DNA of 58,834 bases from a virus. Below are positions 18,985 to 51,135 of this stretch, piece after piece; within the stretch, counting starts at the first letter, position 1, and each line of letters begins with the position of its first letter. The stretch lies in the IMG/VR virus record IMGVR_UViG_3300042691_017652, positions 1 to 58,834 of that record. The stretch is one strand, 5' to 3'. Below the pieces are notes generated by a model, which saw nothing but the letters and a program-made list of their open reading frames with translations, was not told the origin of the DNA and ran no database searches. Made by a program: the position numbers and the translations under genes.

Positions 18985-19107
18985 CCAAATGTTTCAAATT
19001 TGCCTTTTGTGCGCTTACGTACGATACCGAGGTGCAGCCCTATGTGGTGAGTGACGATACCTTGTCGTCTGGAAGTCTGCAGGTGTAGTACGGGTGTGGT
19101 CATATCC

Positions 19108-19360
19108 GTTCCATCGTTCCATCATAATGGAACAGCAATGGAACAGCCCCACTTGTCCAAAGGCCCCGTCCCTCGGGGCTTCTCTTGATGTGTCCTCTTC
19201 TGTTCCACCGTTCCACCTCATATCCCCCCATATTCAGGTTTTCGAACACGAGATATATACGGGTATATGCATGGAACAATGGAACAATTGCCGCTTTGGT
19301 CCGTCGTACGGGGCTTCTGACCGTTCCATCTGTGTTCCATCATGATGGAACAATGGAACA
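19108..19360. repeat. Half-site array A, inverted relative to array B
   Basis: In the 514-bp gap between terS and the early genes (18940-19453). Twelve GTTCCA/TGGAAC half-sites form groups of 4, 2, 2 and 4; the outer quartets contain 18-bp palindromes (GTTCCATCATGATGGAAC is perfect). Between the inner pairs is an AT-rich core with ATTCAGG, TTCGAACACG and GATATATAC...GTATATGCAT. A GC hairpin (GCCCCG-5 nt-CGGGGC) lies between quartet and pair. The reverse complement of array B follows the same layout and sequence. No gene, tRNA or clear promoter is visible here; the remaining bases (19361-19453) show nothing else. Confidence 0.8.
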
Positions 19361-27375: not shown

Positions 27376-27648
27376 TCACTTTTGTAGTCGGTCTGCAACG
27401 AGTGTGGCATATCCGGCGATATCCGCCCATGAGTCAACGTTCCGAGAGTTTCCATTAACGATCCTCGAGATTTTGTGTAAAATCATAAAAAGCGCCTCTT
27501 TCTGGAAGGTGTCCATCGTGACGTAGCTGCGCCCCGCCCTCGTTACTTCCTGCAAGGCCTGGGAGATCTTCGCTTGTTCCGTGAAATCCCCGTATTCCGA
27601 CCCGCGCTGTTCAAGTATTGCCTTCAAATCAGTCGATGATTGCTGCAC
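27376..27648 (-). CDS. DUF6378-like protein, 90 aa
   Basis: The pattern LEQRGSEYGDFTEQAKISQAL...FQKEALFMILHKISRIVNGNSRNVDSWADIAGYATLV matches the small phage family I recall as DUF6378, usually annotated as unknown and often near nucleotide-metabolism genes. Helical. Overlaps the upstream 393-aa gene by 20 bases. Confidence 0.75.
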   Translation of the reverse strand: MQQSSTDLKAILEQRGSEYGDFTEQAKISQALQEVTRAGRSYVTMDTFQKEALFMILHKISRIVNGNSRNVDSWADIAGYATLVADRLQK

Positions 27649-28810
27649 GTGCTAACCCCCCTTGTTTATAACGACCTTTGTACCCTTCCTCCAGGTTCAT
27701 GCCGCGACGCTTGGACTGATTAAGAATCTCCTCCGTCGCTCCCTCTCCGGTGCGACCCGCGAGGATCTTCTCGATCAACTGCTCCACCGTCGCCGCGCGG
27801 CCCAGGGTATTGGGACCGATGCCCCTCTGCATGCCGTAGGCGTTGGGGTCAGTGAGTGCGGGGACCGCTAAATGACGAAGCAGACCCGGATCCGCCGCCT
27901 CGAGCATGATTGGTTCACGTACCGGACCTGCGATACGATTCAACTGCGCTTCTTTCAGACCTAACACCCCGGTGATTTGGTCCGGAGTCATGTCGGCCAA
28001 GTCCACGGGCTTCAGCGCCACCGCTTGATCAAAAATCGGACTGCCCTTACCCTGCTGCAAGATGTCCATCAAAGGGCGAGCTAACCAGTCCGCGTATTCT
28101 GCACGACCGAAAAGCTGTGGTGATCGATTCATCGCGCTTATGACCGGAGCGATATTCTCGTAGTCGCCGTGCCGGAGACCGTAGGACATCACATTACCCA
28201 GCCTGCGTAACTCGTTGACATCGGTGAGTGCGGTGGGGCCCGAGAAAGCACCCGCAGCACGAAGCTGGTCGTAAAGCGCCGCGTACTGCATGGCACCCAT
28301 CCCCGCACCAGCATTCAGCGCCCCAATATCGTACACGCCGACATCATCCGGAACGGTTTTCGCCCGTTGTGCATCCTCGGCACGATTGTACATCCGATGG
28401 TAAAGCTCTTCGGGATAGCTAGTAGCGAAAAGCATGTCCTCATCCGGAGTCGCCGTGAGTTCAGACAGCGGGTTGTGAGGGTCCGAGGGGTCCACCACCT
28501 GCTGCACTATCTTCTTTTGCAGCGGTAGCTTCCCCTGCGCCATCCGCGCCTGATCGCTCACCGACAACGAGGAAGATCTGAAGTGTGGGGACTGGACCAA
28601 CTGCCTCACTATACCCGTCTTCGGATCTTTCCCGAACATCTGCGCCTTATTGTACTGCTCGATAATCTCGTCGGGAGTCATCGTTTTTTGCGCTTTGGCA
28701 AAAGACTCCGGGATGCGCTTCGCCCCCGGGATATTTGCCATCGTGCGGGTTCCCGCTCCGACGTGACCCATAAGGTCCAAGAATGTGAGTGCTTTGCTAG
28801 GTCCCGCCAT
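27629..28810 (-). CDS. Hypothetical protein with C-terminal Gly-Gly motif, 393 aa
   Basis: A mostly helical protein of unrecognised family (PDEIIEQYNKAQMFGKDPKTGIV, ADMTPDQITGVLGLKEAQLNRIAG). It ends with GYKGRYKQGGLARAAIID, the same Y-x-x-GG-hydrophobic motif found in the head-module proteins, although the gene sits inside the early region next to the deacetylase-like enzyme. It overlaps that gene by 14 bases. Could be a virion protein made early or a partner of the deacetylase; both are guesses. Confidence 0.55.
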   Translation of the reverse strand: MAGPSKALTFLDLMGHVGAGTRTMANIPGAKRIPESFAKAQKTMTPDEIIEQYNKAQMFGKDPKTGIVRQLVQSPHFRSSSLSVSDQARMAQGKLPLQKKIVQQVVDPSDPHNPLSELTATPDEDMLFATSYPEELYHRMYNRAEDAQRAKTVPDDVGVYDIGALNAGAGMGAMQYAALYDQLRAAGAFSGPTALTDVNELRRLGNVMSYGLRHGDYENIAPVISAMNRSPQLFGRAEYADWLARPLMDILQQGKGSPIFDQAVALKPVDLADMTPDQITGVLGLKEAQLNRIAGPVREPIMLEAADPGLLRHLAVPALTDPNAYGMQRGIGPNTLGRAATVEQLIEKILAGRTGEGATEEILNQSKRRGMNLEEGYKGRYKQGGLARAAIID

Positions 28811-29627
28811 AATACACCTCGTCGCTGGTTCTGAGTGTCTGAATATGCACGTCTACCGTGCGTTGAACATCTTTGCAGTATCCACCGGCGAGATTCCACA
28901 CGAGAGGGATCTTAGACTTCCTGGCTGCGCGAAAGATCCCGAGGTCACGATTCCGCAGACCCTCGAGCGAGAGGTACCCGGAACCATAAGGGTCCTCGAT
29001 CCACGCGTCAGCACCGGCTTGGTACATTATTATACTAGGCTTCGACGACGAAATCAAGCCAGAGGCCCACACTTCCCAGTCATGAGCGTTTGGCTTGTAG
29101 CGCGAGACGAACGATCGCATATCCAGATTCGTCACGTGCCGCACTCGGTCGTGCGCGGCCAGCGCCGCAATGACATCGTCCGTCCCATCCCCGTAGTGGC
29201 CGTCACCGTCGAAGATTAGCGCCGGTTTGATCGCTCCACTGCTGAGCGCCGCGATCATCAGCCCGTTGAATGTGCAGAACCCTCCTCCGAAGTCGAACCC
29301 CGCGTGGTGGAAGCCCTGAGTGGCTGAGCATGCGACCTCCGCTTTCTTTTCGCTCACGTGCCGGGTCGCGGCCAAGAAGTTCGCGTTCGTGTACCTGAGT
29401 GTCTCGTTAAGCACCGTGTCGGTATTTCCGAATCCATTGGGGGTCTTGCCCGAGAACACGTTCACCACGTACTTCAGCGAATGCGCGGTGATTAACTCGA
29501 CGTTCTTCAACGGCTCAAAATCGGTAAGCAGTGGTCGCGCGGCCTGTCGCACGAACATCGGGATCTTGCGATAAGACGGAAAGTCGAAGTCGCAGGACTG
29601 GCGGAGATTGTAGAAAATCGGGGTCAT
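28797..29627 (-). CDS. Histone-deacetylase-superfamily (acetylpolyamine amidohydrolase/HDAC-like) enzyme, 276 aa
   Basis: The arginase/deacetylase-fold active site appears intact. GFHHAGFDFGGGFCTFN near residues 106-121 has the catalytic His pair; FDGDGHYGDGT at 139-149 carries the zinc ligands Asp and His; GADAW at 205-209 supplies the third ligand; DPYGSGYLSLEGL follows, then NLAGGY late in the protein. It is shorter than most bacterial members because the N-terminal part is reduced. Substrate unknown: acetyl-lysine on host proteins, acetylpolyamines or another amide. It has its own promoter and lies next to the 2-aminoadenine genes. Confidence 0.83.
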   Translation of the reverse strand: MTPIFYNLRQSCDFDFPSYRKIPMFVRQAARPLLTDFEPLKNVELITAHSLKYVVNVFSGKTPNGFGNTDTVLNETLRYTNANFLAATRHVSEKKAEVACSATQGFHHAGFDFGGGFCTFNGLMIAALSSGAIKPALIFDGDGHYGDGTDDVIAALAAHDRVRHVTNLDMRSFVSRYKPNAHDWEVWASGLISSSKPSIIMYQAGADAWIEDPYGSGYLSLEGLRNRDLGIFRAARKSKIPLVWNLAGGYCKDVQRTVDVHIQTLRTSDEVYYGGT

Positions 29628-29656: not shown

Positions 29657-29686
29657 ATTATACCACGGGCGGGGTATCTGTGTCAA
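29657..29686 (-). promoter_or_regulatory. Sigma70 promoter for the deacetylase-like gene
   Basis: Minus strand TTGACA (29686-29681), 18-bp spacer and TATAAT (29662-29657), 30 bases upstream of the start at 29627. It overlaps the last codons of the zinc-ribbon gene, so the deacetylase can be transcribed apart from the Z cassette. Confidence 0.85.
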
Positions 29687-29858
29687 CATCCGTTTCCAAA
29701 TAGTACTCTTTTAGCTTCGGATCTGTGATCGACGGGTACTCGCGCGTGGTGAATCGGAATTGGCAGACCGTGCATGCCCTGCGGCGACGCGTTCCACCGT
29801 CCGCGTTCTGGTACACGGTCGTAACCTGGGTGATACCGCCACATTTAACGCATTTCAT
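29658..29858 (-). CDS. NrdR-like zinc-ribbon protein, 66 aa
   Basis: MKCVKCGG...VTTVYQNADGGTRRRRACTVCQFRFTTREYP matches the NrdR zinc ribbon closely (two CxxC pairs, RRRRxCxxCxxRFTTxE), but the ATP-cone domain is missing and replaced by a short acidic tail. NrdR represses ribonucleotide reductase genes; a stand-alone ribbon could modify host nucleotide supply or simply bind DNA. It overlaps the datZ-like stop by 4 bases and so travels with the Z genes. Confidence 0.75.
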   Translation of the reverse strand: MKCVKCGGITQVTTVYQNADGGTRRRRACTVCQFRFTTREYPSITDPKLKEYYLETDVDTDTPPVV

Positions 29859-30403
29859 ATCCCGATCTCCTCGCTTACGCGGCGCACCGCGAAATCAATA
29901 TCCAATTCCTCGAAAACCCCATGCCACTTCTGCACACAGCGGTCGAGCGACGCCTCAAGACCCGATTGAACATCGAGTGCGTTCTGCCCGATCCCGTGGT
30001 CACGCAGGAACCAAATCGCCTCGATCAGGTCCGCGATCTCCACGTACATTTCGATCGGCGTCCCAGCGATCCGACGCTTGTCGGCGATGTATCCCGGGTC
30101 CACGACCTCCTCGGACTTGTCGATGATGTCCAACCCACCCACCTGCCTCAGCACCCGCTTGTAGGGCGTCGGGGTGTCCCCGGTGCGGACCTCGACCATG
30201 TCGTGCGAGAGCGACCAGTGCATGAGCCTCAATGCGTACTGGGGGTCGAGCAGCTGCTTGTCCCTGCAATGCCGAGCGAGTTGGCCGACGATGAGGGTGA
30301 CGTTAAAATGATGCTCCGCAAGATTCTGAGTGCGCGAGACGTTGACGATCTGCCACCGTTTGACGTGCGAAGCACGGAGCTGTTCAGCTAGAGAAAGACC
30401 CAT
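29855..30403 (-). CDS. datZ: HD-domain dATP triphosphohydrolase (DatZ-like), 182 aa
   Basis: A YfbR-like HD phosphohydrolase: RWQIVNVSRTQNLAEHHFNV gives the first His (31-32), LSHDMVEVRTGDTPTP the central His-Asp (67-68), and a later Asp in VEIADLIEAIWF completes the metal site. Phage DatZ proteins of this size remove dATP (and dADP/dAMP) from the pool so that 2-aminoadenine, not adenine, enters DNA. Presence beside purZ, mazZ and dpoZ makes DatZ far more likely than a generic nucleotidase. Catalytic residues look intact. Confidence 0.88.
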   Translation of the reverse strand: MGLSLAEQLRASHVKRWQIVNVSRTQNLAEHHFNVTLIVGQLARHCRDKQLLDPQYALRLMHWSLSHDMVEVRTGDTPTPYKRVLRQVGGLDIIDKSEEVVDPGYIADKRRIAGTPIEMYVEIADLIEAIWFLRDHGIGQNALDVQSGLEASLDRCVQKWHGVFEELDIDFAVRRVSEEIGI

Positions 30404-30408
30404 CCTGA

Positions 30409-30624
30409 TTACCTTATCGCTTTAAGACGCTCAAGCCGGTCGATGATCTGCCCACTTTCGAGTGGTTCGAAGTTCTCGAACTCGAAGTGATCCACGGCAC
30501 GACTAAGCGCCTGATTCCATATCTCCCGCACGAACTCCCTAGTGTGCGAGTCCTGTTCACCTAGTAACTCGCCAAACCGACGCGAGTACCAGATCTCGAA
30601 TACTTCATTACGGCTTTTCATCAT
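30409..30624 (-). CDS. Small hypothetical protein in the Z cassette, 71 aa
   Basis: A charged, helical protein (EVFEIWYSRRFGELLGEQDSHTREFVREIWNQALSRAVDHFEFENFEPLESGQIIDRLERLK) between mazZ and datZ. It overlaps the mazZ end by 17 bases. No family recognised; it could be an extra component of the Z pathway or a passenger. Confidence 0.6.
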   Translation of the reverse strand: MMKSRNEVFEIWYSRRFGELLGEQDSHTREFVREIWNQALSRAVDHFEFENFEPLESGQIIDRLERLKAIR

Positions 30625-31126
30625 GTGTATGCCTCATAATACGGGTTTGAGAGTCCACGGTCCAAGTACGTCCAACGTTGATCGCCATTTTCTCGGTCAC
30701 TGCCCTTCGAATATCGATGCCATTAATCGCCGCTAGATCGAGCAGCAGAATCATTATATCCGCGAACTCTGCCGCCGCCTTCGGATCACGGGCGTACTCG
30801 CCCACCTCCTCGTAGAGCTTAAGCAACACGTCGGGTGTCTTCCTATTCGGGAACACCTCGTCCGCCCAAGTGGTGACCACCTGCTGCAGCCGCCGGATAT
30901 CCGCCCCTCCGCGCTTCGCGAAAGCATTGACGGACCGTACGGCCAAGTCCGCGTTCTTCTCGCAGTTCCCGAGCACGCCGTTGTACTGATGTTTCACTTC
31001 GAAGTTCGCCACCGCTGCACCGTTAGCATCAATGACCACCATATCGTTCCCCGGGTGTATGCTCCAGGGAAGGGGGTTCTGTTCGTGCGTGTGCAGCAGC
31101 GAGTTCATGATAAATTCATTAGACAT
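30608..31126 (-). CDS. mazZ: MazG-like nucleotide pyrophosphohydrolase (MazZ-like), 172 aa
   Basis: The C-terminal half is a MazG-type helical domain with KLYEEVGEYARD (E106, E107, E110) and EFADIMILLLD (E120, D123), the metal-binding E-E-x-x-E and E-x-x-D sets. The N-terminal ~75 residues (WSIHPGNDMVVIDANGAAVANFEV...) form a separate beta segment of a type often joined to phage MazG domains. In Z phages MazZ turns dGTP (and dATP) into monophosphates, feeding dGMP to PurZ. It lies 3 bases after purZ. Confidence 0.86.
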   Translation of the reverse strand: MSNEFIMNSLLHTHEQNPLPWSIHPGNDMVVIDANGAAVANFEVKHQYNGVLGNCEKNADLAVRSVNAFAKRGGADIRRLQQVVTTWADEVFPNRKTPDVLLKLYEEVGEYARDPKAAAEFADIMILLLDLAAINGIDIRRAVTEKMAINVGRTWTVDSQTRIMRHTHDEKP

Positions 31127-31129
31127 CTT

Positions 31130-32245
31130 TTAAGCTCCAGCCTTGTTGCGGAATTTGTAGCGCTGCCATTTGGATACGATCTCTTTACGTCTCGCCGTGT
31201 AGTTCTCACCCTCGGACAGCAGCACCACCGAGTGGATATCGGGACCGAGACCCAGCCATTTTACCCTAGCGCCGGTCTCTTCAATAGAGTTCACGATATG
31301 GAGCAGGTATTGCTCGTCCTGCACGTAATTCGCGAAGTTCAAGAACACCTCGCTCGCGCCCGACAGGTCGATCGCCTCGCGGATCTGGTCGCGACTGAAC
31401 GTGAAAATGCGCCTCGGGAGCTTGGTCACCGTGGTGAGTTCGATCGGCTGGCCGATCTCCTCGAATGAGATCTCCTTTTGGTCCAGGTGCGCCGGTCCGC
31501 TGTACCCCACCTGCCTACCCTCCGAATCGTACCGGTTCGCCACCCGGATTGGATACGTACGCGCTGTACCGATCACGCGGCACGAAGCCTCGTTGAAAAG
31601 TGTGGCCGGGATCCCACAGTCGGCCAGGATCTGGAAGGTGCTCACATCCCGCGAGGTGGTGTAGGGGTAGAAGCCGTGGTACATGGAAAGGCCCACGCCC
31701 TGTGCACCTTCGATCAAGATATGTTCCGAATCTCGAATCGCTCGTTGGTACTGCGCAGTGGTGCACACCATAGACGCAAGCTCCAGAAAGTCCTTCGCGA
31801 CGGCGGGTTTGTTCGGCTGACGACGGATCCGGGAAATCATCGCCGCACCCACACCCTTCTTGGTCGAGCCGATCGCCGTCATGCTTTGCGCCTCTTCCTC
31901 CAAGTGTTCCTCGGTCACCACCGCTGCATGCGGATGGATAAGGATCTGGATATTTTTCGCGTCGATTATATCCTTGCACTGTTCGATCTCGGCCAGGAGC
32001 TGCGCCGGATTAATCACCGAGCCTGGGCCCAGTAACACCCTACGCAGGTAGGGGGCGACGATTCCGTTCGCCAAATGTGTATGCACGAATTTACGCCCCT
32101 TGGCGTCAATGAACGTATGCCCCGCGTTGGGTGCCCACGCGGTGATCACCGTGTCGTATCCCTCATAAGTCGCCAGGGTGCCTACGATCAGCCCCTTGCC
32201 CGTGCTGCCGAATTGAAGGTCAATGACCAAATCTATTTTCTTCAT
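31130..32245 (-). CDS. purZ: 2-aminoadenylosuccinate synthetase (PurZ), 371 aa
   Basis: A full adenylosuccinate-synthetase fold: DLQFGSTGKG (9-18), NAGHTF, THLANGIVAPYL, GSTKKGVGAA, EGAQGVGLSMYHGFYPYTTSRD, a late WLGLGPD. The decisive feature is the P-loop: host PurA has G-D-E-G-K-G with the catalytic Asp, while here it is G-S-T-G-K-G (Ser14), the substitution reported for phage PurZ. Reaction by family knowledge: dGMP + aspartate + ATP to N6-succino-2-amino-dAMP, which host PurB turns into dZMP. It overlaps the polymerase stop as ATGA. Confidence 0.93.
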   Translation of the reverse strand: MKKIDLVIDLQFGSTGKGLIVGTLATYEGYDTVITAWAPNAGHTFIDAKGRKFVHTHLANGIVAPYLRRVLLGPGSVINPAQLLAEIEQCKDIIDAKNIQILIHPHAAVVTEEHLEEEAQSMTAIGSTKKGVGAAMISRIRRQPNKPAVAKDFLELASMVCTTAQYQRAIRDSEHILIEGAQGVGLSMYHGFYPYTTSRDVSTFQILADCGIPATLFNEASCRVIGTARTYPIRVANRYDSEGRQVGYSGPAHLDQKEISFEEIGQPIELTTVTKLPRRIFTFSRDQIREAIDLSGASEVFLNFANYVQDEQYLLHIVNSIEETGARVKWLGLGPDIHSVVLLSEGENYTARRKEIVSKWQRYKFRNKAGA

Positions 32246-34080
32246 CCTTTTGCCTCGTACCAGTCTTCACCCAAGCCCCAATCACAGGTAATCGGTACCC
32301 GGAGCTTGATCGGGCAATCGATTCCATCAAATGTAGTGTAAATCTGCGCGATCTTGTCCGCGTGATCCAGCGAGTCCTTATCGAGCGAGATCCCGACCTC
32401 GTCGTGCACGGACAGCAGCAGCCGTCCCACCCCGTGACCGGTGAGATAACGGTGCAGCTCGATGAGCTTCATCTTCATGCAGTCGGCGGAAGTCGCTTGG
32501 TAAATCAGCCCCGACGCCTTGTGCACGAACTGCCCACCCGGGAACCGAATATGCCGCCCCATAATCGAGTGTACGTACCCGCGCTCTTTGGCGATCGAAC
32601 TCGCCTTGTTCGCCATATTCCGCATCCCGGGGTTCGCCGCATGATACCGCTCGAAGAGTTCCATCGCCTCGGGCCCCGCCTTCAGGTACAGATTCCCATT
32701 TGGCCCGGTCTCCTCGGTGTAGGGTAGTCCGCACTCTTGGGCCAGTCGCCCGGACCCCATATTGAAGGCGAGCCCTAGATTAATGGCCTTCGAGGAGGGG
32801 CCCCCCGCGTACTGAGCGTTCCTCGGGATGCCGGTCATGTCGGAGACCAATTGGTGAAAATCCAGGTTCGGATTCTCGCGGTAGGCCTCCAGAATAGACG
32901 GTACCTGCCCGTAATGGTTCGCGACCCGAAATTCGAACTGCGACCAGTCGAGACCCAGCCATTTCGCGCCGTGATCCGCCTTGAAGATCGGACGCACGAG
33001 CGATTTGATCGCCACGTCCCGCGACGGGATTTGCTGCAGCGCAGGATTGGTGATCGAGAGTCGTCCGGTGCCGGTCCCCGCTTCCGAATCGTTCTTGGTC
33101 TGGTTATAATTGCAGTGAATCACCCCGTCCTGCTGGTGCCCGAGGATATGACCCTGAATGAAAGTGTCTCGGGTCTTGAGCATTTTGCGAAGATCGAGAA
33201 TCATCTTCGCCGCCGGGTGCTTCATGCGACGTAGACAATCGGCATCGATCGACGCCTTGCCGCCATCGGTCTTCCCGGCCCGGGTGCCATCGATCAGGTA
33301 CCACTCATTGTCCTCACCCAGGGTCGGCTTGAATAGCTGCGCGATCGATCCGGAGGGGTTCGGGTTGATCTCGAACCCGGCCTCCCTATTTAGATCCCGC
33401 TGCATATCGTCGATGCGCTTCGTGAGGTGACGAGAGGCCCTCTCGGCCATATCGACGTCGACCCGCACTCCCTCGGTCTCCATGTCGATAATAACGGGCA
33501 TCAGATCCCGCTCGAGTCTGTGCACTCGATGAAGATTTTGCTTCTCGATCTCGCTCCGCTGCCACAGGTAGAGCTGCCGGGTGACTACCGCATCCTGGAT
33601 TGCATACCGCGCCACGACCTCCTGAGGAGCGCGTGAAATGTTCGGCATCTGCGCGTTGCGTGTAGCACGACCCCCAAATAGCTTCGCCAGTTCATCGTAG
33701 ATCTCCGTGTCTTTCTGCGCTCCGACGTACTTCCGCGCCAAAAAATCGAGTCCATAAGTCGGCTCATGCTCGTTAATTAGCGCCGCCCGAATCATCGTAC
33801 AATCGATCCGATCGGTCGGGATTCCGACTCGGGCTTCGCGCAGGAAGTGCAGGTCGAACTTGAAATTATGCCCGACCCAGACGCCCACGCGATCCTCGGC
33901 GATCAGGTCGACCATCCAATCCAGGATCTTCGGAGTCGCCCGTACGTCCCAATACCCAGCGGTGCCATCGGGAAGTGCGATAGAGACCCCGAACACATGG
34001 TCCTCCCACCACTTGAGCCCGGTGGTCTCGGTATCTACCACCAAGTAGGGGATCTGGCCGTCAATGCGTGGGATATTCAT
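32242..34080 (-). CDS. dpoZ: Family A DNA polymerase with 3'-5' exonuclease, DpoZ type, 612 aa
   Basis: The N-terminal ~180 residues are a DnaQ-like exonuclease (YLVVDTETTGL near 12-22, GHNFKFDLHFL near 70-80, ARYAIQDAVVTRQLY near 160). The C-terminal ~350 residues hold the family A palm and fingers: LGLDWSQFEFRVANHYG (motif A), AQYAGGPSSKAINLGLAFNMGSG (motif B) and LLLSVHDEVG (motif C). No 5'-3' exonuclease domain is present. Start codon overlaps the preceding gene by one base. Located 5' of purZ, mazZ and datZ, it is most likely DpoZ, which prefers dZTP over dATP; that preference cannot be read from sequence alone. Confidence 0.9.
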   Translation of the reverse strand: MNIPRIDGQIPYLVVDTETTGLKWWEDHVFGVSIALPDGTAGYWDVRATPKILDWMVDLIAEDRVGVWVGHNFKFDLHFLREARVGIPTDRIDCTMIRAALINEHEPTYGLDFLARKYVGAQKDTEIYDELAKLFGGRATRNAQMPNISRAPQEVVARYAIQDAVVTRQLYLWQRSEIEKQNLHRVHRLERDLMPVIIDMETEGVRVDVDMAERASRHLTKRIDDMQRDLNREAGFEINPNPSGSIAQLFKPTLGEDNEWYLIDGTRAGKTDGGKASIDADCLRRMKHPAAKMILDLRKMLKTRDTFIQGHILGHQQDGVIHCNYNQTKNDSEAGTGTGRLSITNPALQQIPSRDVAIKSLVRPIFKADHGAKWLGLDWSQFEFRVANHYGQVPSILEAYRENPNLDFHQLVSDMTGIPRNAQYAGGPSSKAINLGLAFNMGSGRLAQECGLPYTEETGPNGNLYLKAGPEAMELFERYHAANPGMRNMANKASSIAKERGYVHSIMGRHIRFPGGQFVHKASGLIYQATSADCMKMKLIELHRYLTGHGVGRLLLSVHDEVGISLDKDSLDHADKIAQIYTTFDGIDCPIKLRVPITCDWGLGEDWYEAKG

Positions 34081-34355
34081 TAAAATGGGATTTCGTCGTC
34101 TATATCGTCGAAATCCGTCGCCGCGTTCTTGCGACCCGTGTTCCCGCGATTCGGTGCATCCTTCGGGGAGAGCTTGATCGAGAAGTAACGCTTTCCCTCG
34201 ATCTTGGACCCGGGCTTGCCGGTATTGACCCAGGCGGATACCCAGAAGTCCCGGCCCTCGACGTTGAGCGATCCGGTGAACTCGGGGTGCGAGTCCGTGG
34301 TGCGATTCTCGTTCCGCATCAGCAGCCCGGAATTGGTGTTGTCGTACTGTTTCAT
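34080..34355 (-). CDS. Small SSB-like protein with acidic C-terminal tail, 91 aa
   Basis: The pattern NSGLLMRNENRTTDSHPEFTGSLNVEGRDFWVSAWVN resembles small OB-fold-like phage/plasmid proteins (DUF736-like). The C-terminal tail DDIDDEIPF is acidic with a terminal Phe, like the protein-binding tail of single-stranded DNA-binding proteins. Its own consensus promoter and position before the polymerase fit a high-copy replication protein. Not a canonical SSB; the tail is the main support. Confidence 0.62.
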   Translation of the reverse strand: MKQYDNTNSGLLMRNENRTTDSHPEFTGSLNVEGRDFWVSAWVNTGKPGSKIEGKRYFSIKLSPKDAPNRGNTGRKNAATDFDDIDDEIPF

Positions 34356-34382: not shown

Positions 34383-34411
34383 ATTATATCACTCGTGGGA
34401 TTATCTGTCAA
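34383..34411 (-). promoter_or_regulatory. Consensus sigma70 promoter upstream of the SSB-like/polymerase/Z cassette
   Basis: Minus strand TTGACA (34411-34406), 17-bp spacer and TATAAT (34388-34383), 28 bases upstream of the start at 34355. It would drive the SSB-like gene, dpoZ, purZ, mazZ and datZ as one transcript. Confidence 0.9.
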
Positions 34412-35829
34412 TTATCTAGGTTATAGCCATTGTAGCCCTCCACGATATCCAGTACGTCTTTGCTTCGCGTTAGCGCCACATACCACACCCGAATCTCGTC
34501 GTCCGGCTTAGCATGAGCACTGTCCGCCACGCGATTCGTCATATCCGTAAGTACGATGACGCGATCCGCCTCATGGCCTTTAGCTGCGTGAATAGTGGAG
34601 AGTCGAATAGTAGGCTCCACATCGATGTCGACCTCCTGGTAGTAATCGATGACGCGGTGCGGCATTTCGATCGCAATGTAGAAAGGGGACGCGACGATCG
34701 CCATGTAATCGTTTCTTTCGAGCGCTGCCTTTGTCTCTGCTGATCCCACTGCAAAGAGAGCCGATCGATCAGAGTCTGATAGACGTTTTCCGTCGCGAAT
34801 CTTGTTGTATGATCGAAGGCCAATGGCATACCGATTCTGGAACATTCCCGGACGGCCCGACTCCCGAACGTAGGGGATGCGGCGGTCGATGAGCGCGTTC
34901 TCAGCTTCGCGCAGGATTGAATGCGTCCGTGCCAAAACCAGCGTATCCTCGCCGTGTTCAACATCAATCGACGCCATTGACCCATGGTTCCGTACTGTGC
35001 CTGGGCGTCCACAAGAATCGAACTCCTTATCCACGCGGAAAAGGACTCGACGAATGAGAGACTGGGACTTCTGGTGCACTGCAACAGGAAGTCGATGCGA
35101 GAGCGAGAGCACAACGCTATCACCCTTGTGCTTCGCGCAGAATTTTGCCATACCGTGTGGATCAGCGCCCGACCAAGCATATATTGCTTGGTCATCATCC
35201 CCCGCGACAAAGACTTGATGTGCGCGTTTTGCGAGCCGCTCAATAACACGCCACTGCAAAGGTGAAAGGTCTTGTGCCTCGTCGACGAATAGGACCTCAA
35301 TTCCCTGTCGAACAGCTCCGGCGCTGGCCCTCTCGAGCATGTCGGTGAAGTCGTAGTAGCCGTAGGTCTTCTTCCAGTTCGCGTACGCTGAGACGAACAT
35401 TTCATATTCTGCACGAGTGCCCGGACGATCCGAAATCTCGTAGACTTCGGAAGGGTGACTGAAGGTGTTTCGCGCATAGTTCAACAGATCCAAGTAGGCG
35501 TCCCCATCGGTGCGCTCTTCATCGTCCTCGGGGGACTTGCCGACGATCGGAATACCGGTGACTTTCGAGAATTCACGCAGCTTAATATGGTCCACCACCT
35601 GGGCTTGCTTCAATCCCAAGGAGCGAAACGCCATCGCGTGAATCGTGGATACATTATCGGACCTCTTCAGGCCGAGCCTAGATAACGCCTCACTCGCCGC
35701 CGCACGGGTGAACGACAGAAACGCTATCCGCTCGGCCTGGACACCGGTCTCGCGCGTGTGCTGCACTAACCGCAGCAACTCCGTGGTCTTACCGGTGCCA
35801 GGAGGACCGTAGATGGCCCGAACGTGCAT
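34408..35829 (-). CDS. SF1 UvrD/Rep-like DNA helicase, 473 aa
   Basis: Helicase motifs in order: I GPPGTGKTT (residues 8-16), Ia FLSFTRAAASEALSR, II VLFVDEAQDLSPLQW, III AGDDDQAIYAWSGA, IV-V region RLSTIHAAKGHEADRVIVL, and VI VWYVALTRSKD. The length is short for UvrD because subdomains 1B and 2B are reduced, as in phage versions. Role: unwinds DNA during replication or recombination. It starts one base inside the preceding stop and ends inside the 34.4-kb promoter. Confidence 0.9.
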   Translation of the reverse strand: MHVRAIYGPPGTGKTTELLRLVQHTRETGVQAERIAFLSFTRAAASEALSRLGLKRSDNVSTIHAMAFRSLGLKQAQVVDHIKLREFSKVTGIPIVGKSPEDDEERTDGDAYLDLLNYARNTFSHPSEVYEISDRPGTRAEYEMFVSAYANWKKTYGYYDFTDMLERASAGAVRQGIEVLFVDEAQDLSPLQWRVIERLAKRAHQVFVAGDDDQAIYAWSGADPHGMAKFCAKHKGDSVVLSLSHRLPVAVHQKSQSLIRRVLFRVDKEFDSCGRPGTVRNHGSMASIDVEHGEDTLVLARTHSILREAENALIDRRIPYVRESGRPGMFQNRYAIGLRSYNKIRDGKRLSDSDRSALFAVGSAETKAALERNDYMAIVASPFYIAIEMPHRVIDYYQEVDIDVEPTIRLSTIHAAKGHEADRVIVLTDMTNRVADSAHAKPDDEIRVWYVALTRSKDVLDIVEGYNGYNLDN

Positions 35830-40833: not shown

Positions 40834-41084
40834 GTTCCACCGTTCCATCATAATGGAACACAGATGGAACAGTCAGAACCCCCGTCACGTAAGGCCTCCC
40901 GGCATCTGTTCCATTGTTCCATGCATATATACGTATACCTTGCGTGTTCAGAAACCTGAATATGTATATATATCAGATGGAACGGTGGAACAGAGATACC
41001 ACTGCCTCAGAACGCCCGTCGTACGGGGCCTCGGAGCCAGTAGGCTGTTCCATCTCCGTTCCATCATAATGGAACAGTGGAACG
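40834..41084. repeat. Half-site array B, inverted copy of array A
   Basis: In the 499-bp gap between the early operon and the late ejection genes (40732-41230). Twelve GTTCCA/TGGAAC half-sites in groups of 4, 2, 2 and 4, with GTTCCATCATAATGGAAC palindromes in the outer groups and an AT-rich core containing GTTCAGAAACCTGAATATG and runs of TATATA. Its reverse complement matches array A in order, spacing and length (about 251 versus 253 bp), best around TTCTGACYGTTCCATCTG and ATTCAGGTTT. The rest of the gap holds two opposed promoters and a terminator. Confidence 0.82.
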
Positions 41085-41175
41085 GTCTCGAGGGGTTCTA
41101 GACGGCAACCCTGTCCCACGAACCACATAGGTCGTCGCCAGGATAGGGTTCACACGGGTGCGCGAAATGAAGATT

Positions 41176-44872: not shown

Positions 44873-45925
44873 TTAAATATCCCCGAAGTCCTTGCCCCAC
44901 GAATTGTCGACGTTCGTAGCAGGCGACCATTCTACATTCGATTTGTACCAATCGGAAAGTGCGCCACCACCATCGCTGCCCGAACCAAAAAGGCTCTTGA
45001 AGGTGTCGGTGATTCCCTGGACTGCCGAGGTCCCACCCGCACCTGCGGCGAAGAGCGATCCGAGTCCGGCGATTTGCGAGAGTGGTGAGTTTGAATATGC
45101 ACCCGGCATCGGACCCTTGAAGTCCTCGGTCACCGTGGTCGGAACCTTTAAATTTGCGAAAATGTTCCCAGCACCGGTAGCGGTAGCAATTGGTGCAAGA
45201 AGCTTTGCCTGCTCTTGCGCTTGACTCTTCGCACCGAGGTCGAATTGACCGGTGATCGATTTAATCGCGGCGTCCAGGTCCGCTTGTCCAAGACCTTTGG
45301 TGGTCTCCGCCGCACTGCGGTAAAGACCGGCTTGAGTACCCGCAGTTCTCATCGCTTCGTTGTAGGCGTCCGCCATTGCTTTCGTTTGTGCACCGGTAAG
45401 ATTCGCTTGAACATCTGCGCCCATCTGCCCCAAGGCACCCATCATGCGTTGCGATCCGGTGCCGCCCGTGCCACCAAAGAACGATTTTAGCGCTGGCATC
45501 AGATTCCGCTGCATGTTTTGCTGCGAAAGCCTTTCCATCTCGTCCACCACCCCGGGCATTCTTGCGCCGCCACCCTCGGGGGTGTATCCTGAAATGAATG
45601 GGTTCAGGTATTGAGAGATTAGCTCCGGTGTGATCCCTTGTCCGGCCTTCTCGGCAAGACTGGCCGCGTCAGTAAAATAATCGCCATACCCCTCGAGATC
45701 GGTAGCACCCCGGGCCAACGCTGAGGTCTGCAGCGGGTCGAATCCAGCGACCAGTTCCGCACCGGTCTTCGGCGTGAATACCCCCTCTGCCGACGTCGTA
45801 CCAAGAGCACCCGATCCGGCTTTAGCTAGATTCTCCAGGTATGCGTTATACCAGTCGGGACCCGCCGTACCGGTCGTCTTTTTAGTCGTTACATCGGGTA
45901 ACGGTGATCCTTGGGTGAGGCTCAT
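44873..45925 (-). CDS. Tail/internal virion protein, 350 aa
   Basis: N-terminal DWYNAYLENLAKAGSGALG is a conserved start in this type of phage protein. Residues 50-230 are Ala/Gly/Gln-rich helices (EMERLSQQNMQRNLMPALKSFFGGTGGTGSQRMMGALGQM), then a Gly-rich hydrophobic segment (IAGLGSLFAAGAGGTSAV) and polar C terminus. Position and the membrane-active look suggest an ejected protein. Overlaps its neighbours by a few bases. Confidence 0.6.
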   Translation of the reverse strand: MSLTQGSPLPDVTTKKTTGTAGPDWYNAYLENLAKAGSGALGTTSAEGVFTPKTGAELVAGFDPLQTSALARGATDLEGYGDYFTDAASLAEKAGQGITPELISQYLNPFISGYTPEGGGARMPGVVDEMERLSQQNMQRNLMPALKSFFGGTGGTGSQRMMGALGQMGADVQANLTGAQTKAMADAYNEAMRTAGTQAGLYRSAAETTKGLGQADLDAAIKSITGQFDLGAKSQAQEQAKLLAPIATATGAGNIFANLKVPTTVTEDFKGPMPGAYSNSPLSQIAGLGSLFAAGAGGTSAVQGITDTFKSLFGSGSDGGGALSDWYKSNVEWSPATNVDNSWGKDFGDI

Positions 45926-48900
45926 TTGTTCGCTTCCTTAAAGTACGCGAGTGGATTCTTGGCCGGTGGTGGGATCTTTTTCAGGGATCCCGATCGCTTG
46001 TGCTTCCTGATCGCCTCTCGCATGGCATCCAATTTCCGCGCCCCTTCTTTGTTCGACCCGTCACCCAGCGCCGCCACGATTTCCGCATCGAACACGTACT
46101 CACCGTCCGCGAGTCTCGCCGGGATTAAATCGTCCTGTCCACCACCCGCACCCTGCACGTAGTGAGAGCCTTTGTGTGGTGTCCCACCCGTTGCGGCCTG
46201 CAGTGCTGAAGGCATTATTATACCACCTTGCGCGTACTTTTGGACAGATCCTCCGTTAAGAAACGGTTCAAGTACGCTATCTATTGATGGTTCTTTACCA
46301 TATGCGTAATAGTCCATGTCTTCCTTCTTAGGTACTTGGGGTTCAACACCTGACGCTCGGCGCAATGCGGAAAAAGCGTCATTCTCGGCTTTTTCTTGGC
46401 TCGGGAACAGGAACGGAAACATCGCGGCCAGCGACGGAAGGTCGGTGCGGAATCGCCCACCCAGCCATGCCTCTTGGGGCATATCGATCTTCGATGTCAC
46501 CGCAGGTGCAGCGCCCATGAGCATCCCGCCGTCCCCAGTAGGCACTGCCGCGCGAGAGGAAGTGGGAGTGCTCGTCGACTTTTGCGCAGTCTGCACGGTT
46601 TGTGCGGTGACGGGCTCAGGGTCTTTAACCTCGACCTTCTCGATCTCTTCCTGGGTGAGGTCTTGCACCGTTTTGGTTTCGGTCCTTACCACTTCGCCCG
46701 ACCCTGTAATCACCTCGGTCACCACTACCTCCCCCGTGTCGGTGTTGACGCGAGTTTCGGTCGTAGTGTTCGTGTTGTTGCTTACAGTGACATTGGTCGT
46801 CACATTCGATGACGTGTCCTTAGTCGTAGTCGAGGTCCCGTCAACGGTTTCGGTAACTTGAGTTACAGTTCCGAGATTCGTGTCTGAAGTGATGGTGGTG
46901 ACCGCACCGGTTTTCAGATCCGTGGACACTGAGGTGGTAGTCCCACTATTGGTGTCTGTAGTAGTGTCTGTAATCACTCCAGTCTTGCTCTCGACTACCG
47001 TGCTGCTGTTCACTCCAGTGCTGTCGTTTAGGACGACCGTGTTTTTCGTTCCGGTATTCGGATCCGTAATCAGCGTAGTTGATGCCCCGGTGTTCGCGTC
47101 GATTTTGGTGTCAGTAGTAACTCCAGTCGTCGGATTTACTTGAACACCGGCCTCGATCTTCACCCCGGTATCTGCTTTTACCCCGGTATCTGCTTTTACC
47201 CCGGTATCCGCTACGACTCCAGTATCTGCTTTTACCCCGGTATCCGCTACGACTCCAGTATCTGCTTTTACCCCGGTATCCGCTACGACTCCAGTGTCAG
47301 CTTTTACCCCGGTATCTGTCGCCACAGTGTCGGTTTTTACCCCGGTATCTGTCGCCACAGTGTCGGTTTTTACATCCAGAACCACACCCGTGTTGATGTC
47401 AGTCTTGGTCTCTGTAACTACTCCAGATCCTTGATCAGTTTTGGTCTCAACGACTACCCCGGATCCCGGATCAGTTTTGGTCTCAACAACTACTCCAGAT
47501 CCTTGATCAGTTTTGGTCTCTGTAACTACTCCGGTTCCTGGATCAGTCTTAGTCTCAACAACTACTCCGGTTCCTGGATCAGTCTTAGTCTCAACAACTA
47601 CTCCGGTTCCTGGATCAGTCTTAGTCTCAACAACTACTCCGGTGTCCGCTTTAATCCCGGTATCCACTGCAGCGCCGGACCCTGCTGTCGCTCCGGTTTC
47701 CGCTGTAATTCCAGTATCAGCCTTCACCCCAGTATCCACTACAGCGCTGGACCCCGATTTCACTACGTTCGTAAGTTCGCCGAGAGTGAGATCGGTTCCA
47801 TCTGCTTTGGTTCCTACGACTACATTGGTGGACGCACCAGCACCATTCCCCGTAATCGCTGACCCTAAAGCGTCGCCGAGTGTCACGTCTTTACCGTTAT
47901 CCGTTGCGACTACGGTGGCTAGGTCATTAACGCTTAGCCCTTGATCGGCAAGAACGGAATCGGATTTCGAGACTGCAAGATTTCCGACTAATGTGTTCGC
48001 AGTGGTCACCGCCGCGTTGTCGCCCATAATGTTTGACAAATCGTTCGCCAGTGTTTGCCCTGCCGCCCCGAGATCTGTGGTGTTCACGAGATCGCCGACC
48101 AAGGTCGAAGCTTTCTCCCCACCGTACACGGTTTCGAGATTTCCGATCGCGTTATTTACCGCGTTTTGATTCGCCGCCGTTCCGGAGCCTATAAAGGTCG
48201 ATTGTTGGTCCAGGGTATCGAGTTTAGTCCCCTGTAAGGTCCCGCTTGTCGGACCACCGTAGAGTGCACCACCCACCATCGAGGTGAGTGCCTTGGTGGC
48301 ATCAACAGACCCGGTAAGTGCGAGGTCCACGGCAGCGGAAATCGCACCTTCTTCACCGGCCTCCTTAGCTGACTCTTTTACTATTGTTTTTGTTACACCC
48401 ATCGCACCAGTGGCTGCGTCATCCGCCGTGCTTCCAAGCACCTTGCCGACGACCTTGCTCGCACCGGCTGCCGCCCCAGCCAGGGCCACCGTGGTGCCTG
48501 CCGCTACCCCCGCCGCTTTTTGGGCTGAATCGTGTGCAGCCTGCGGTGTCGCACCTGCTTTAATTTGATTATCATACTCGGTGTTGTAGGCCGCACCGCC
48601 GTTCTCCATTGCGGAAGCGATCGTCTCTTTTACCCAAAACCCGGGCGCGCCTTTAAGGGTCGCGATTTGTAGAATCTCTTCAACGACTTCACTACCTATT
48701 GTAGCACCGAACGCTTTCGGGTTGTTGAAAACCGTTGAGACTAAATTCCCGAAATTCTCAGCTGCATCTTTGACGCCTGTGGACGACCCGAGCTTGCTGA
48801 TAGCAGAGTCAATGTCTTTCTTACCCTGCGTAATATCAGCACCTTCTGCTGCAGTCGCCGCAGCGGAGAGCGCGTTAGCTTTATCGAGTGCTGCAGCACC

Positions 48901-51135
48901 AGCATTCGTGAATCCGAGTGCGTTTAGCACTCCGGCGACACTATTTGCTCCGAAGCTTGCTACCCCCTGTGCGGCGACGCTCCCGAGTACCGAATCCACG
49001 CGTGGTGCCTCGACCGTAACCGCACCCTTAGTAGAGGGTAAGTCTTTCCCTTCACTGTTCACCGAAGAGGGTTTAATAAGATCCGCGCTTTTACCTTCTG
49101 CTAAAACGGCATTAACTGCTTGTACGTATTTCGCGTAATCCGAGTCGCTTGTACCACCACCCGCCGCGATAAACGCCGCGCGATTATGCATACCATTCGG
49201 CGCCACATAAGGAGTGTCCGTCGTGGTACTTGCTGCGCCTGTCGCGGCGGTAGTCTTGGTTGCAAGATCTGGTCGTTCTTCAGCGGTCGCGGTGCTGTAG
49301 AGTTTACCCTGGTAATTAAAGGTCGAGTTAGGTCCGAAGGCTTCTCTTGCTGCAGCGTAAGCTGCACTAAAATTCGGTGCGTTTGCGATTTTTGCATTTG
49401 CAGCTTCGACCGCAGTCGTATCGGTAAATTCACCAGCCCCAGCTTTAATTTCTGCTGAACCCTCAGCTTCCCCCGCGCCCATTCGCACCGCTTCTTGCGC
49501 ATTCGCGATTTGAGTAGCGAGCGCTTGCCCTGCGGTAGCATCGACGAGATCTGGATCGTAGCTGGTGTCGCGCGAAGCTATAGCTGTTGCTGGTGTTACT
49601 GCACCGGTGGTTACTGCTTTCGAGGCTTCGAACGCGGTCTGGTCATCCGCTCCTGCGGCTTTAGCAGCCACAAAGGCTGAAGCTCCTAAATCCTGCTTGG
49701 CGTCGAGACTCTCGGCACCCGCAGTTACTAAAGGATCCGAGCCTGTTATCGGAAGTTTACCACTTATAGCTAATTGTCCAAGAGTGGAAAGCGCTCCGAA
49801 CTCATTACCCTTGTACGCTTGCATCCCCGCGTTGATTAGCTTTCCTGCTGTTGCCTTATCTAGTCCAGTTTCACTCGCTAGAGCATCCGACGCATAAGAT
49901 AAGCCTGTTGACGTGAGTAAGGCTTGCGGATCTATTTTCCCAGTCGTTACTAATTGTGTGACCGTATTTTTTGCGAGAGATTGGAACTCGTCCGGCACCA
50001 TCGAGCCTATTTGGTTCGCGAGCTCTCCCGCGCCATAGGATAACACCGAACCTTTAAGTGCATCTAGCGGGTCAGCGCCTCTAGCTACTTGAGATGCGAA
50101 ATTTAGAGCACCACTTCCTAAAGCTGTGGCGCTGGTTCCGGTCAGTGCTCCCCCGGATAGATAATTTCCGAGAGACTCGGTTAACCCCGAGCCTCCAACG
50201 CCTGCAGATACGACAGCTAGAAAATAAGGTAATGCGCTGCTTTCGGATTTTGGCCCTACTTGCTCGGTGACCGAGCCATCGCTATAAGTTTGAATTATTT
50301 TTTCAAACCCGTTTCCTAGATCGATAGTCTCCGCACTTACAGGCTTCCTCTCCGCTGTCGGATTGAATCCAGCGTTCTCTTTAGCTAACCGCTCCTCGTT
50401 GCTCATGTACCTTCCGAGGTCCGGATAAAACATCCCCCCTTCCTTTGGGTAATAAGCCGGGAATTTGTCATTTTTCCCGATAGGATTCACGAATGTTCGC
50501 GACTGAGGGTCCCAATAATTTCCCGCACTGGTGACGTAGGCTCCGGGAATCGAAGAAAGATCTAGTTCGCCAGAAGAGCTAGAAGTCGTGGATAAAGCGC
50601 CGCTAATTGGTGCCGTGCTGGTACCGCTGGCCATTGATCCTAAGGGTCCAACACCTGGAACACCCCCGGCAGGAGCACCCATGTTGTCATCTACGGGTTT
50701 AACTCGCGAAGCTATCTCTGTCGCTGATGCTAGTTCAAATGCGGCCCGTTCTTCTGGTGAAACATCGCTACCAAAGACTGATGCCCAGTAGGAAAGACCA
50801 CCAGGATCGGCCTCTCGACCTAGAATGTCTAGATAAAGCTGCTTGACCGCGTCGAGATTCGGTGTTTCCGGTGCGAATTTACGGCCTTCAGTGGCGCCAA
50901 AGAGTGCGTAGTGGCGTTGAGCTTCTGTCGGTGTGTCAATACCAGCTGCCACCAGATCGGGGTAAAGCTTCGTGTAGGTCTCCCAATCAAAGCCAGTGGG
51001 TACCTTCGAAGGGTCAAATGCGTATCCCATCATCCAGTTGTCTATAGGGCCAACGACGGCGGGTGCAGGAACTACAGGGTCATCAAGGCTGTCTTCTGAC
51101 GCTAAACTTTGTAGGCCGCGAATAGGTAGTGCCAT
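45922..51135 (-). CDS. Giant virion protein with DUF4214-like N terminus and repetitive central region, 1737 aa
   Basis: Residues ~85-145 read VKQLYLDILGREADPGGLSYWASVFGSDVSPEERAAFELASATE, the DUF4214 pattern found in extracellular and cell-surface proteins. Residues ~160-1000 are Ala/Ser/Gly-rich. Residues ~1130-1330 are tandem 12-residue units (VVVETKTDPGTG and GVKADTGVVADT types). A Thr/Asn/Ser-rich part follows. The last ~110 residues contain YAQGGIIMPS, GGGQDDLIPARLADGEYVFDAEIVAALGDGS and LDAMREAIRKHK, a domain frequent at the end of phage injection proteins. Likely ejected or tail-internal; the repeats may act as an extended linker. Confidence 0.7.
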   Translation of the reverse strand: MALPIRGLQSLASEDSLDDPVVPAPAVVGPIDNWMMGYAFDPSKVPTGFDWETYTKLYPDLVAAGIDTPTEAQRHYALFGATEGRKFAPETPNLDAVKQLYLDILGREADPGGLSYWASVFGSDVSPEERAAFELASATEIASRVKPVDDNMGAPAGGVPGVGPLGSMASGTSTAPISGALSTTSSSSGELDLSSIPGAYVTSAGNYWDPQSRTFVNPIGKNDKFPAYYPKEGGMFYPDLGRYMSNEERLAKENAGFNPTAERKPVSAETIDLGNGFEKIIQTYSDGSVTEQVGPKSESSALPYFLAVVSAGVGGSGLTESLGNYLSGGALTGTSATALGSGALNFASQVARGADPLDALKGSVLSYGAGELANQIGSMVPDEFQSLAKNTVTQLVTTGKIDPQALLTSTGLSYASDALASETGLDKATAGKLINAGMQAYKGNEFGALSTLGQLAISGKLPITGSDPLVTAGAESLDAKQDLGASAFVAAKAAGADDQTAFEASKAVTTGAVTPATAIASRDTSYDPDLVDATAGQALATQIANAQEAVRMGAGEAEGSAEIKAGAGEFTDTTAVEAANAKIANAPNFSAAYAAAREAFGPNSTFNYQGKLYSTATAEERPDLATKTTAATGAASTTTDTPYVAPNGMHNRAAFIAAGGGTSDSDYAKYVQAVNAVLAEGKSADLIKPSSVNSEGKDLPSTKGAVTVEAPRVDSVLGSVAAQGVASFGANSVAGVLNALGFTNAGAAALDKANALSAAATAAEGADITQGKKDIDSAISKLGSSTGVKDAAENFGNLVSTVFNNPKAFGATIGSEVVEEILQIATLKGAPGFWVKETIASAMENGGAAYNTEYDNQIKAGATPQAAHDSAQKAAGVAAGTTVALAGAAAGASKVVGKVLGSTADDAATGAMGVTKTIVKESAKEAGEEGAISAAVDLALTGSVDATKALTSMVGGALYGGPTSGTLQGTKLDTLDQQSTFIGSGTAANQNAVNNAIGNLETVYGGEKASTLVGDLVNTTDLGAAGQTLANDLSNIMGDNAAVTTANTLVGNLAVSKSDSVLADQGLSVNDLATVVATDNGKDVTLGDALGSAITGNGAGASTNVVVGTKADGTDLTLGELTNVVKSGSSAVVDTGVKADTGITAETGATAGSGAAVDTGIKADTGVVVETKTDPGTGVVVETKTDPGTGVVVETKTDPGTGVVTETKTDQGSGVVVETKTDPGSGVVVETKTDQGSGVVTETKTDINTGVVLDVKTDTVATDTGVKTDTVATDTGVKADTGVVADTGVKADTGVVADTGVKADTGVVADTGVKADTGVKADTGVKIEAGVQVNPTTGVTTDTKIDANTGASTTLITDPNTGTKNTVVLNDSTGVNSSTVVESKTGVITDTTTDTNSGTTTSVSTDLKTGAVTTITSDTNLGTVTQVTETVDGTSTTTKDTSSNVTTNVTVSNNTNTTTETRVNTDTGEVVVTEVITGSGEVVRTETKTVQDLTQEEIEKVEVKDPEPVTAQTVQTAQKSTSTPTSSRAAVPTGDGGMLMGAAPAVTSKIDMPQEAWLGGRFRTDLPSLAAMFPFLFPSQEKAENDAFSALRRASGVEPQVPKKEDMDYYAYGKEPSIDSVLEPFLNGGSVQKYAQGGIIMPSALQAATGGTPHKGSHYVQGAGGGQDDLIPARLADGEYVFDAEIVAALGDGSNKEGARKLDAMREAIRKHKRSGSLKKIPPPAKNPLAYFKEANK
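47160..47660 (-). repeat. In-frame tandem repeats within the giant virion gene
   Basis: Two blocks. About 47400-47650 has 36-bp units coding for 12-residue V-V-V-E-T-K-T-D-P-G-T-G-type repeats, several nearly identical. About 47160-47340 has 18/36-bp units coding for G-V-K-A-D-T / G-V-V-A-D-T. Units remain multiples of three, so copy number could change without breaking the frame. Confidence 0.85.

Follow-up and report, generated by a model that had tools for sequence, protein, structure and literature searches.

The closest described counterparts of the system considered here, a gene cassette for placing 2-aminoadenine (Z) in virion DNA where adenine would stand, come from the Salmonella phage PMBT28, the Pseudomonas phage PSA28 and the Acinetobacter phage SH-Ab 15497. 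In these, genes for a UvrD-like helicase, the polymerase DpoZ, a single-strand DNA-binding protein (SSB), PurZ, MazZ and DatZ form a single run. The same run is present in the IMG/VR virus record IMGVR_UViG_3300042691_017652, which derives from an uncultured phage and whose full 58,834 bases are here called the window (sequence records write Z as A). The PurZ and DpoZ of the window are respectively 45-46% and 48-49% identical to those of the three phages. The loci differ in several respects: the three phages carry SSB between dpoZ and purZ, whereas in the window it precedes dpoZ; their MazZ has a longer N-terminal fusion (DUF5664 type, PMC12884076), while that of the window has a different N-terminal domain; and in the window mazZ and datZ are split by a gene for a 71-residue protein, and DatZ has Glu122.

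Two further systems are close in other ways. The Vibrio phage phiVC8 shares a 48% identical PurZ, a 42% identical DpoZ and all three clade marks of DpoZ with the window, but its MazZ is of the short MazZ-2 type and its dpoZ and purZ are separated by a primase gene. The cyanophage S-2L has the purZ-mazZ-datZ order and a MazZ-1-type enzyme as in the window, but it has a PrimPol and lacks DpoZ, and its PurZ is 42% identical. Against this background, the block in the window is very probably a working Z cassette, as judged from curated models, active-site residues, gene order and trees.

The Z cassette of the window and its clade

All genes of the block lie on the minus strand and are listed in order of transcription:

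34408..35829, minus strand: UvrD/PcrA-like helicase (phrog_1967; the same neighbour in cultured Z phages)
34080..34355, minus strand: SSB (phrog_7364/18154)
32242..34080, minus strand: dpoZ, family A DNA polymerase with 3'-5' exonuclease and polymerase domains, 612 residues (NF038380, clade)
31130..32245, minus strand: purZ, 2-aminoadenylosuccinate (dSMP) synthetase, 371 residues (NF038379, Ser14, clade)
30608..31126, minus strand: mazZ, predicted MazZ-1-type dGTP pyrophosphohydrolase, 172 residues (PF04447, kept ligand residues)
30409..30624, minus strand: 71-residue helical protein between mazZ and datZ, overlapping the 3' end of mazZ by 17 bp
29855..30403, minus strand: datZ, predicted HD-domain dATP triphosphohydrolase, 182 residues (phrog_7076)
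29658..29858, minus strand: NrdR-type zinc ribbon without ATP cone, 66 residues (PF22811)
28797..29627, minus strand: histone deacetylase (HDAC)-family zinc hydrolase, 276 residues (PF00850)
27629..28810, minus strand: 393-residue protein with no assigned function, co-occurring with the HDAC-family gene

A preliminary description of this stretch, made from the letters alone, had proposed four adjacent genes, dpoZ, purZ, mazZ and datZ, at 29855-34080, and all four are found there. It also saw a 71-residue protein and an NrdR-like ribbon embedded among them: the former does lie between mazZ and datZ, while the ribbon, at 29658-29858, is downstream of datZ and outside that range. SSB and the UvrD-like helicase extend the run of Z genes upstream.

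No cultured phage is close to the window in DNA. A search of IMG/VR with PurZ recovered 63 viral loci, most with the shared block, and a search with DpoZ recovered 61, partly the same loci. Since so many related viral loci are found, most of them with the block, a chance arrangement is excluded. The whole block is kept in a clade of contigs of up to about 59 kb and the cassette is held together over tens of contigs; the phage belongs to a clade of ~55-60 kb whose members are uncultured. By its sequence, the gene set is itself of a known kind, i.e. the complete and intact set of known Z phages.

PurZ and DpoZ group with the enzymes of Z phages

PurZ scores 334.5 bits against the curated NCBI model NF038379 (cut-off 300) and matches the PHROG 2-aminoadenylosuccinate synthetase family (5.9e-85). 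Its Ser14 occupies the position of the catalytic Asp of E. coli PurA, which bears out the substitution already read in the preliminary description, and it has the PurZ-type ATP site N303-F304-x-N306. In a residue comparison guided by the literature on S-2L and phiVC8, it agrees with phiVC8 PurZ at Ser14, N40, T128, Q182, V235, N303, F304 and N306. The residues listed for the dGMP pocket of PurZ are kept with two exceptions: Tyr21 is replaced by Phe12, with Phe at that position also in phiVC8, and Cys204 by Thr196, with Thr at that position in most of the window's clade. In a tree whose outgroup is PurA of E. coli and of large phages, the window falls within the PurZ side, which is split from PurA with 100% support in the Shimodaira-Hasegawa-like approximate likelihood ratio test (SH-aLRT).

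DpoZ likewise passes its curated NCBI model (NF038380, 803.7 bits, cut-off 500). Its Pfam domains are DNA_pol_A and DNA_pol_A_exo1, with the 5' nuclease domain absent, in agreement with the domain content first read from the letters. The exonuclease triad D16/E18/D76 is kept, likewise R141 and M145. The marks of the phiVC8 clade are also kept: L435, F439 and G524 correspond to VC8 L455, F459 and G548, and L, F and G are invariant at these positions in all 75 of 75 environmental relatives. Phe459 is the sole mark in common with the Wayne-type DpoZ; E. coli PolA and four outgroup phage polymerases have Tyr there. The polymerase tree places the window in a clade with phiVC8, ZP6, Bm1, PMBT28 and SH-Ab 15497 (98%), with E. 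coli PolA and other phage polymerases standing apart. Both trees are quick ones with several long branches, from which no deeper order is claimed. PurZ and the polymerase group with the Z-phage enzymes and not with host PurA or ordinary PolA, so that the branching named in the preliminary description as refuting its reading did not occur.

A separate observation concerns a sister lineage (L265, L268, L270, L282, L292 and nine more loci), which keeps DpoZ, MazZ and DatZ but has a PurZ at the end of a long stem in the tree. In this PurZ an otherwise invariant Asn of the base pocket is Gln, and the N-F-x-N of the nucleotide site is T-F-x-D, nearer to the T-K-x-D of PurA. Its substrate or phosphate donor may differ.

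MazZ and DatZ retain their active sites with variations

MazZ belongs to the Pfam family dATP-dGTP_PPHyd (PF04447) and matches the PHROG dATP/dGTP pyrophosphohydrolase family (3.7e-10). The ligand residues W15, K31, E35, D53, D60, K76, N80, W85, M93, R94 and H95 of S-2L MazZ are all kept. The catalytic and guanine-reading residues E107, E110, D123 and D130, the last equivalent to the guanine-reading Asp60, are retained together with those contributed by the second chain. The motifs are thus intact, as had been proposed, apart from the position of Asn20, which is taken up below. In the window's clade MazZ bears an extra N-terminal domain of ~75 residues, passed over in the preliminary description, with no match in Pfam or PHROG. 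That MazZ-1 can be fused at its N-terminus is generally known (PMC8342488), the described partner being DUF5664 (PMC12884076), and the partner in the window is absent among the MazZ partners of the cultured phages aligned.

DatZ is recovered by phrog_7076, with a match to the PHROG dATP triphosphohydrolase family (1.4e-26), and by the Pfam YfbR-like/HD_3 families. The metal ligands H31, H67, D68, E71, D76 and D125 are kept, as are the base and sugar selectors W17 and I19 (equivalents of S-2L Trp20 and Ile22) and the equivalents of Arg19 and Lys81. The HD site is hence intact, as initially described, while a replaced lysine near it (Glu122, below) had gone unmentioned. Its placement in the DatZ lineage comes from homology and the HD site, and the dATPase activity is less sure than the name suggests.

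The predicted pathway and a possible incomplete replacement

The genes, families, residues, clades and synteny are observed, whereas the chemical steps are all inferred from characterised homologues (PMC8342488, PMC8065100, PMC8599892, PMC12884076). MazZ would cut dGTP, and probably GTP too, to the monophosphate; PurZ would join dGMP and aspartate to form dSMP with (d)ATP as the energy source; and PurB and kinases of the host would convert dSMP to the triphosphate of Z (dZTP). DatZ would hydrolyse dATP, to an extent that is uncertain for the Glu122 variant, and DpoZ, as a proofreading polymerase, would prefer dZTP opposite T. The predicted outcome is virion DNA with 2-aminoadenine in adenine's place. 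The A-to-Z reading given in the preliminary description finds support in the curated models, in the residues of the active sites, in gene order and in both trees, and genomic replacement of A by Z is very likely.

Certain points weigh against this reading. PurB and the kinases must be supplied by the host. The base-contacting Asn20 of MazZ is Phe92, a change found in the rest of its clade too. The Lys116 of S-2L DatZ is reported to contact the triphosphate and to be strictly conserved among close homologues (PMC8065100); in the window its position holds Glu122, which lies near the HD site and calls for caution over any claim of full dATP removal. Glu122 is fixed in the window's genus (10/10), whereas the other aligned DatZ proteins have Lys in 114 of 115 cases and Thr in one.

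This contrast speaks for a leaky form of the system, in which dZTP is made but the Glu122 DatZ clears dATP poorly or prefers another substrate. The DNA would then contain both A and Z, or else the exclusion of A would rest on DpoZ and a dATP-using PurZ. Both enzymes have suitable precedents, as S-2L PurZ is able to consume dATP (PMC8342488) and phiVC8 DpoZ is Z-selective by itself (PMC8599892). Nevertheless, DatZ keeps every metal ligand, its counterparts of Arg19 and Lys81 and the residues that select base and sugar, which indicates that it is under selection as a hydrolase, and we regard such partial substitution as unlikely.

Accessory genes and the remaining alternatives

The genes that surround or interrupt the core were assessed over 115 block-spanning loci, some of which overlap as pieces of one contig. 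The zinc ribbon is present in all 115, with its four Cys and the motif RRR..RFTT.E invariant. The HDAC-family and 393-residue genes occur together in 101 of these loci and are both absent from the other 14, never being found singly. The 71-residue gene is conserved in the clade but variable over the 115 loci; its product is modelled as three helices (predicted local distance difference test, pLDDT, 78), a model with no confident fold match.

In the HDAC-family protein the catalytic residues H107, H108, D142, H144, D207 and Y250 are intact and invariant. Its model (pLDDT 89) has V. cholerae HdaH as best fold match; the nearest solved folds are this protein and Leptospira HDAC11, some entries having fatty acids bound. 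As a guess from the model, it might deacylate lysine or a small amide. Among named phages the search gave a single partial match, to a 595-kb uncultured record. Two contigs of large-phage type (L134, L140) carry an HDAC-family gene and a PurA in one region. This linkage was considered as independent functional evidence for an HDAC-PurZ association and rejected, as these are ordinary PurA with the Asp in place. Relatives of up to 49% identity lie on bacterial contigs, which were likewise rejected as evidence for the host, being without Z genes.

The preliminary description had suggested that the 71-residue protein and the ribbon may be unrecognised parts of the pathway, a notion that can be extended to the HDAC-family enzyme. 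Their tight linkage within the clade speaks for it, as does the fact that in viruses HDAC-family genes with 47% identity or more always stand in a Z-cassette context where the contig is long enough. However, a comparison with eight cultured Z-phage loci, among them that of S-2L, finds none of the ribbon, 71-residue, HDAC-family and 393-residue genes, which hence are not required for the Z pathway. Moreover, the 71-residue gene and the HDAC pair are missing in sister lineages that keep dpoZ, purZ, mazZ and datZ, and the bacterial relatives of the HDAC gene occur apart from any Z genes. An undiscovered role in the pathway is thus improbable for any of the three proteins, and all four genes are best classed, from their distribution, as accessories of the clade.

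Finally, although PurZ is homologous to PurA and DpoZ to PolA, the replacement of Asp by Ser, the clade membership of both enzymes, the model cut-offs passed and the co-occurrence of all four genes make it exceedingly improbable that these are ordinary phage homologues in a phage with normal adenine DNA.

A diversity-generating retroelement in the same genome

The minus strand of the window carries a BPP-1-type diversity-generating retroelement (58834-57126 and 1019-1), whose variable repeat (VR) is cut by the ends of the window. Its components are:

58726-58388, minus strand: Avd protein (bAvd, 106.6 bits)
58389-58270, minus strand: template repeat (TR), 120 bp
58031-57126, minus strand: reverse transcriptase, 66% identical to BPP-1 Brt (RVT_1, 57.8 bits)
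1019-3, minus strand: tail protein with the Mtd second domain, cut by the window ends (Mtd domain, 72.3 bits)

The missing piece of VR is supplied by an independent contig (G034; 31,572 bp), which is 99.6-100% identical to the window over the common parts and crosses its junction (locus L376). A close relative (G009), 94% identical in a single long stretch, also runs across this junction, but carries another tail module and no reverse transcriptase. Since both cross the junction, the genome is near complete and circularly permuted. Between TR and VR, 16 of the 120 positions differ, and all 16 fall on the 33 adenines of TR, a pattern with a chance of about 4e-11 if the differences were random. 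The repeats indicate that the retroelement is active and the tail adhesin diversified at adenines.

The Avd, TR, Brt-related reverse transcriptase and Mtd-domain target are shared with the Bordetella phage BPP-1; a 42,493-base record that has the length of BPP-1 (G057) lacks a PurZ match, in contrast to the window. Of 29 records besides the window in which a related reverse transcriptase occurs, none matches PurZ; conversely, 29 Z-cassette records besides the window gave no RVT_1 match with the window as positive control, and in both sets some records may be fragments. We found no paper on Z-DNA paired with diversity-generating retroelements among open-access publications. This pairing of a Z pathway with adenine-directed mutagenesis, found nowhere else among the records compared, is the window's most unexpected feature.

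Adenine-directed mutagenesis by the retroelement probably operates here in a genome without adenine. The template RNA would still hold A, so that the reverse transcriptase could misread it. The cDNA would be synthesised in a cell rich in dZTP and poor in dATP, and would be copied by a Z-selective polymerase. The reverse transcriptase would need to accept dZTP.

Other repeats in the window

An element of ~255 bp is present in two copies of opposite orientation (19106-19359 and 40834-41085; 77% identical), each with terminal inverted repeats of ~40 bp and each in an apparent intergenic gap; it could be a small mobile element or else an origin. Tandem repeats in 36-bp steps occupy 47134-47767, within an open reading frame for 1737 residues (45922-51135).

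Significance for Z phages

With these loci, the few Z cassettes studied by experiment are joined by complete ones from an uncultured clade. Within it are two natural variants worth assaying, namely a DatZ without the triphosphate lysine and a MazZ with a hitherto undescribed N-terminal domain. The window further offers a natural test of adenine-directed mutagenesis where dZTP replaces the cell's dATP: if the retroelement does operate under these conditions, the source of its A-specific infidelity would become testable with a natural base analogue.

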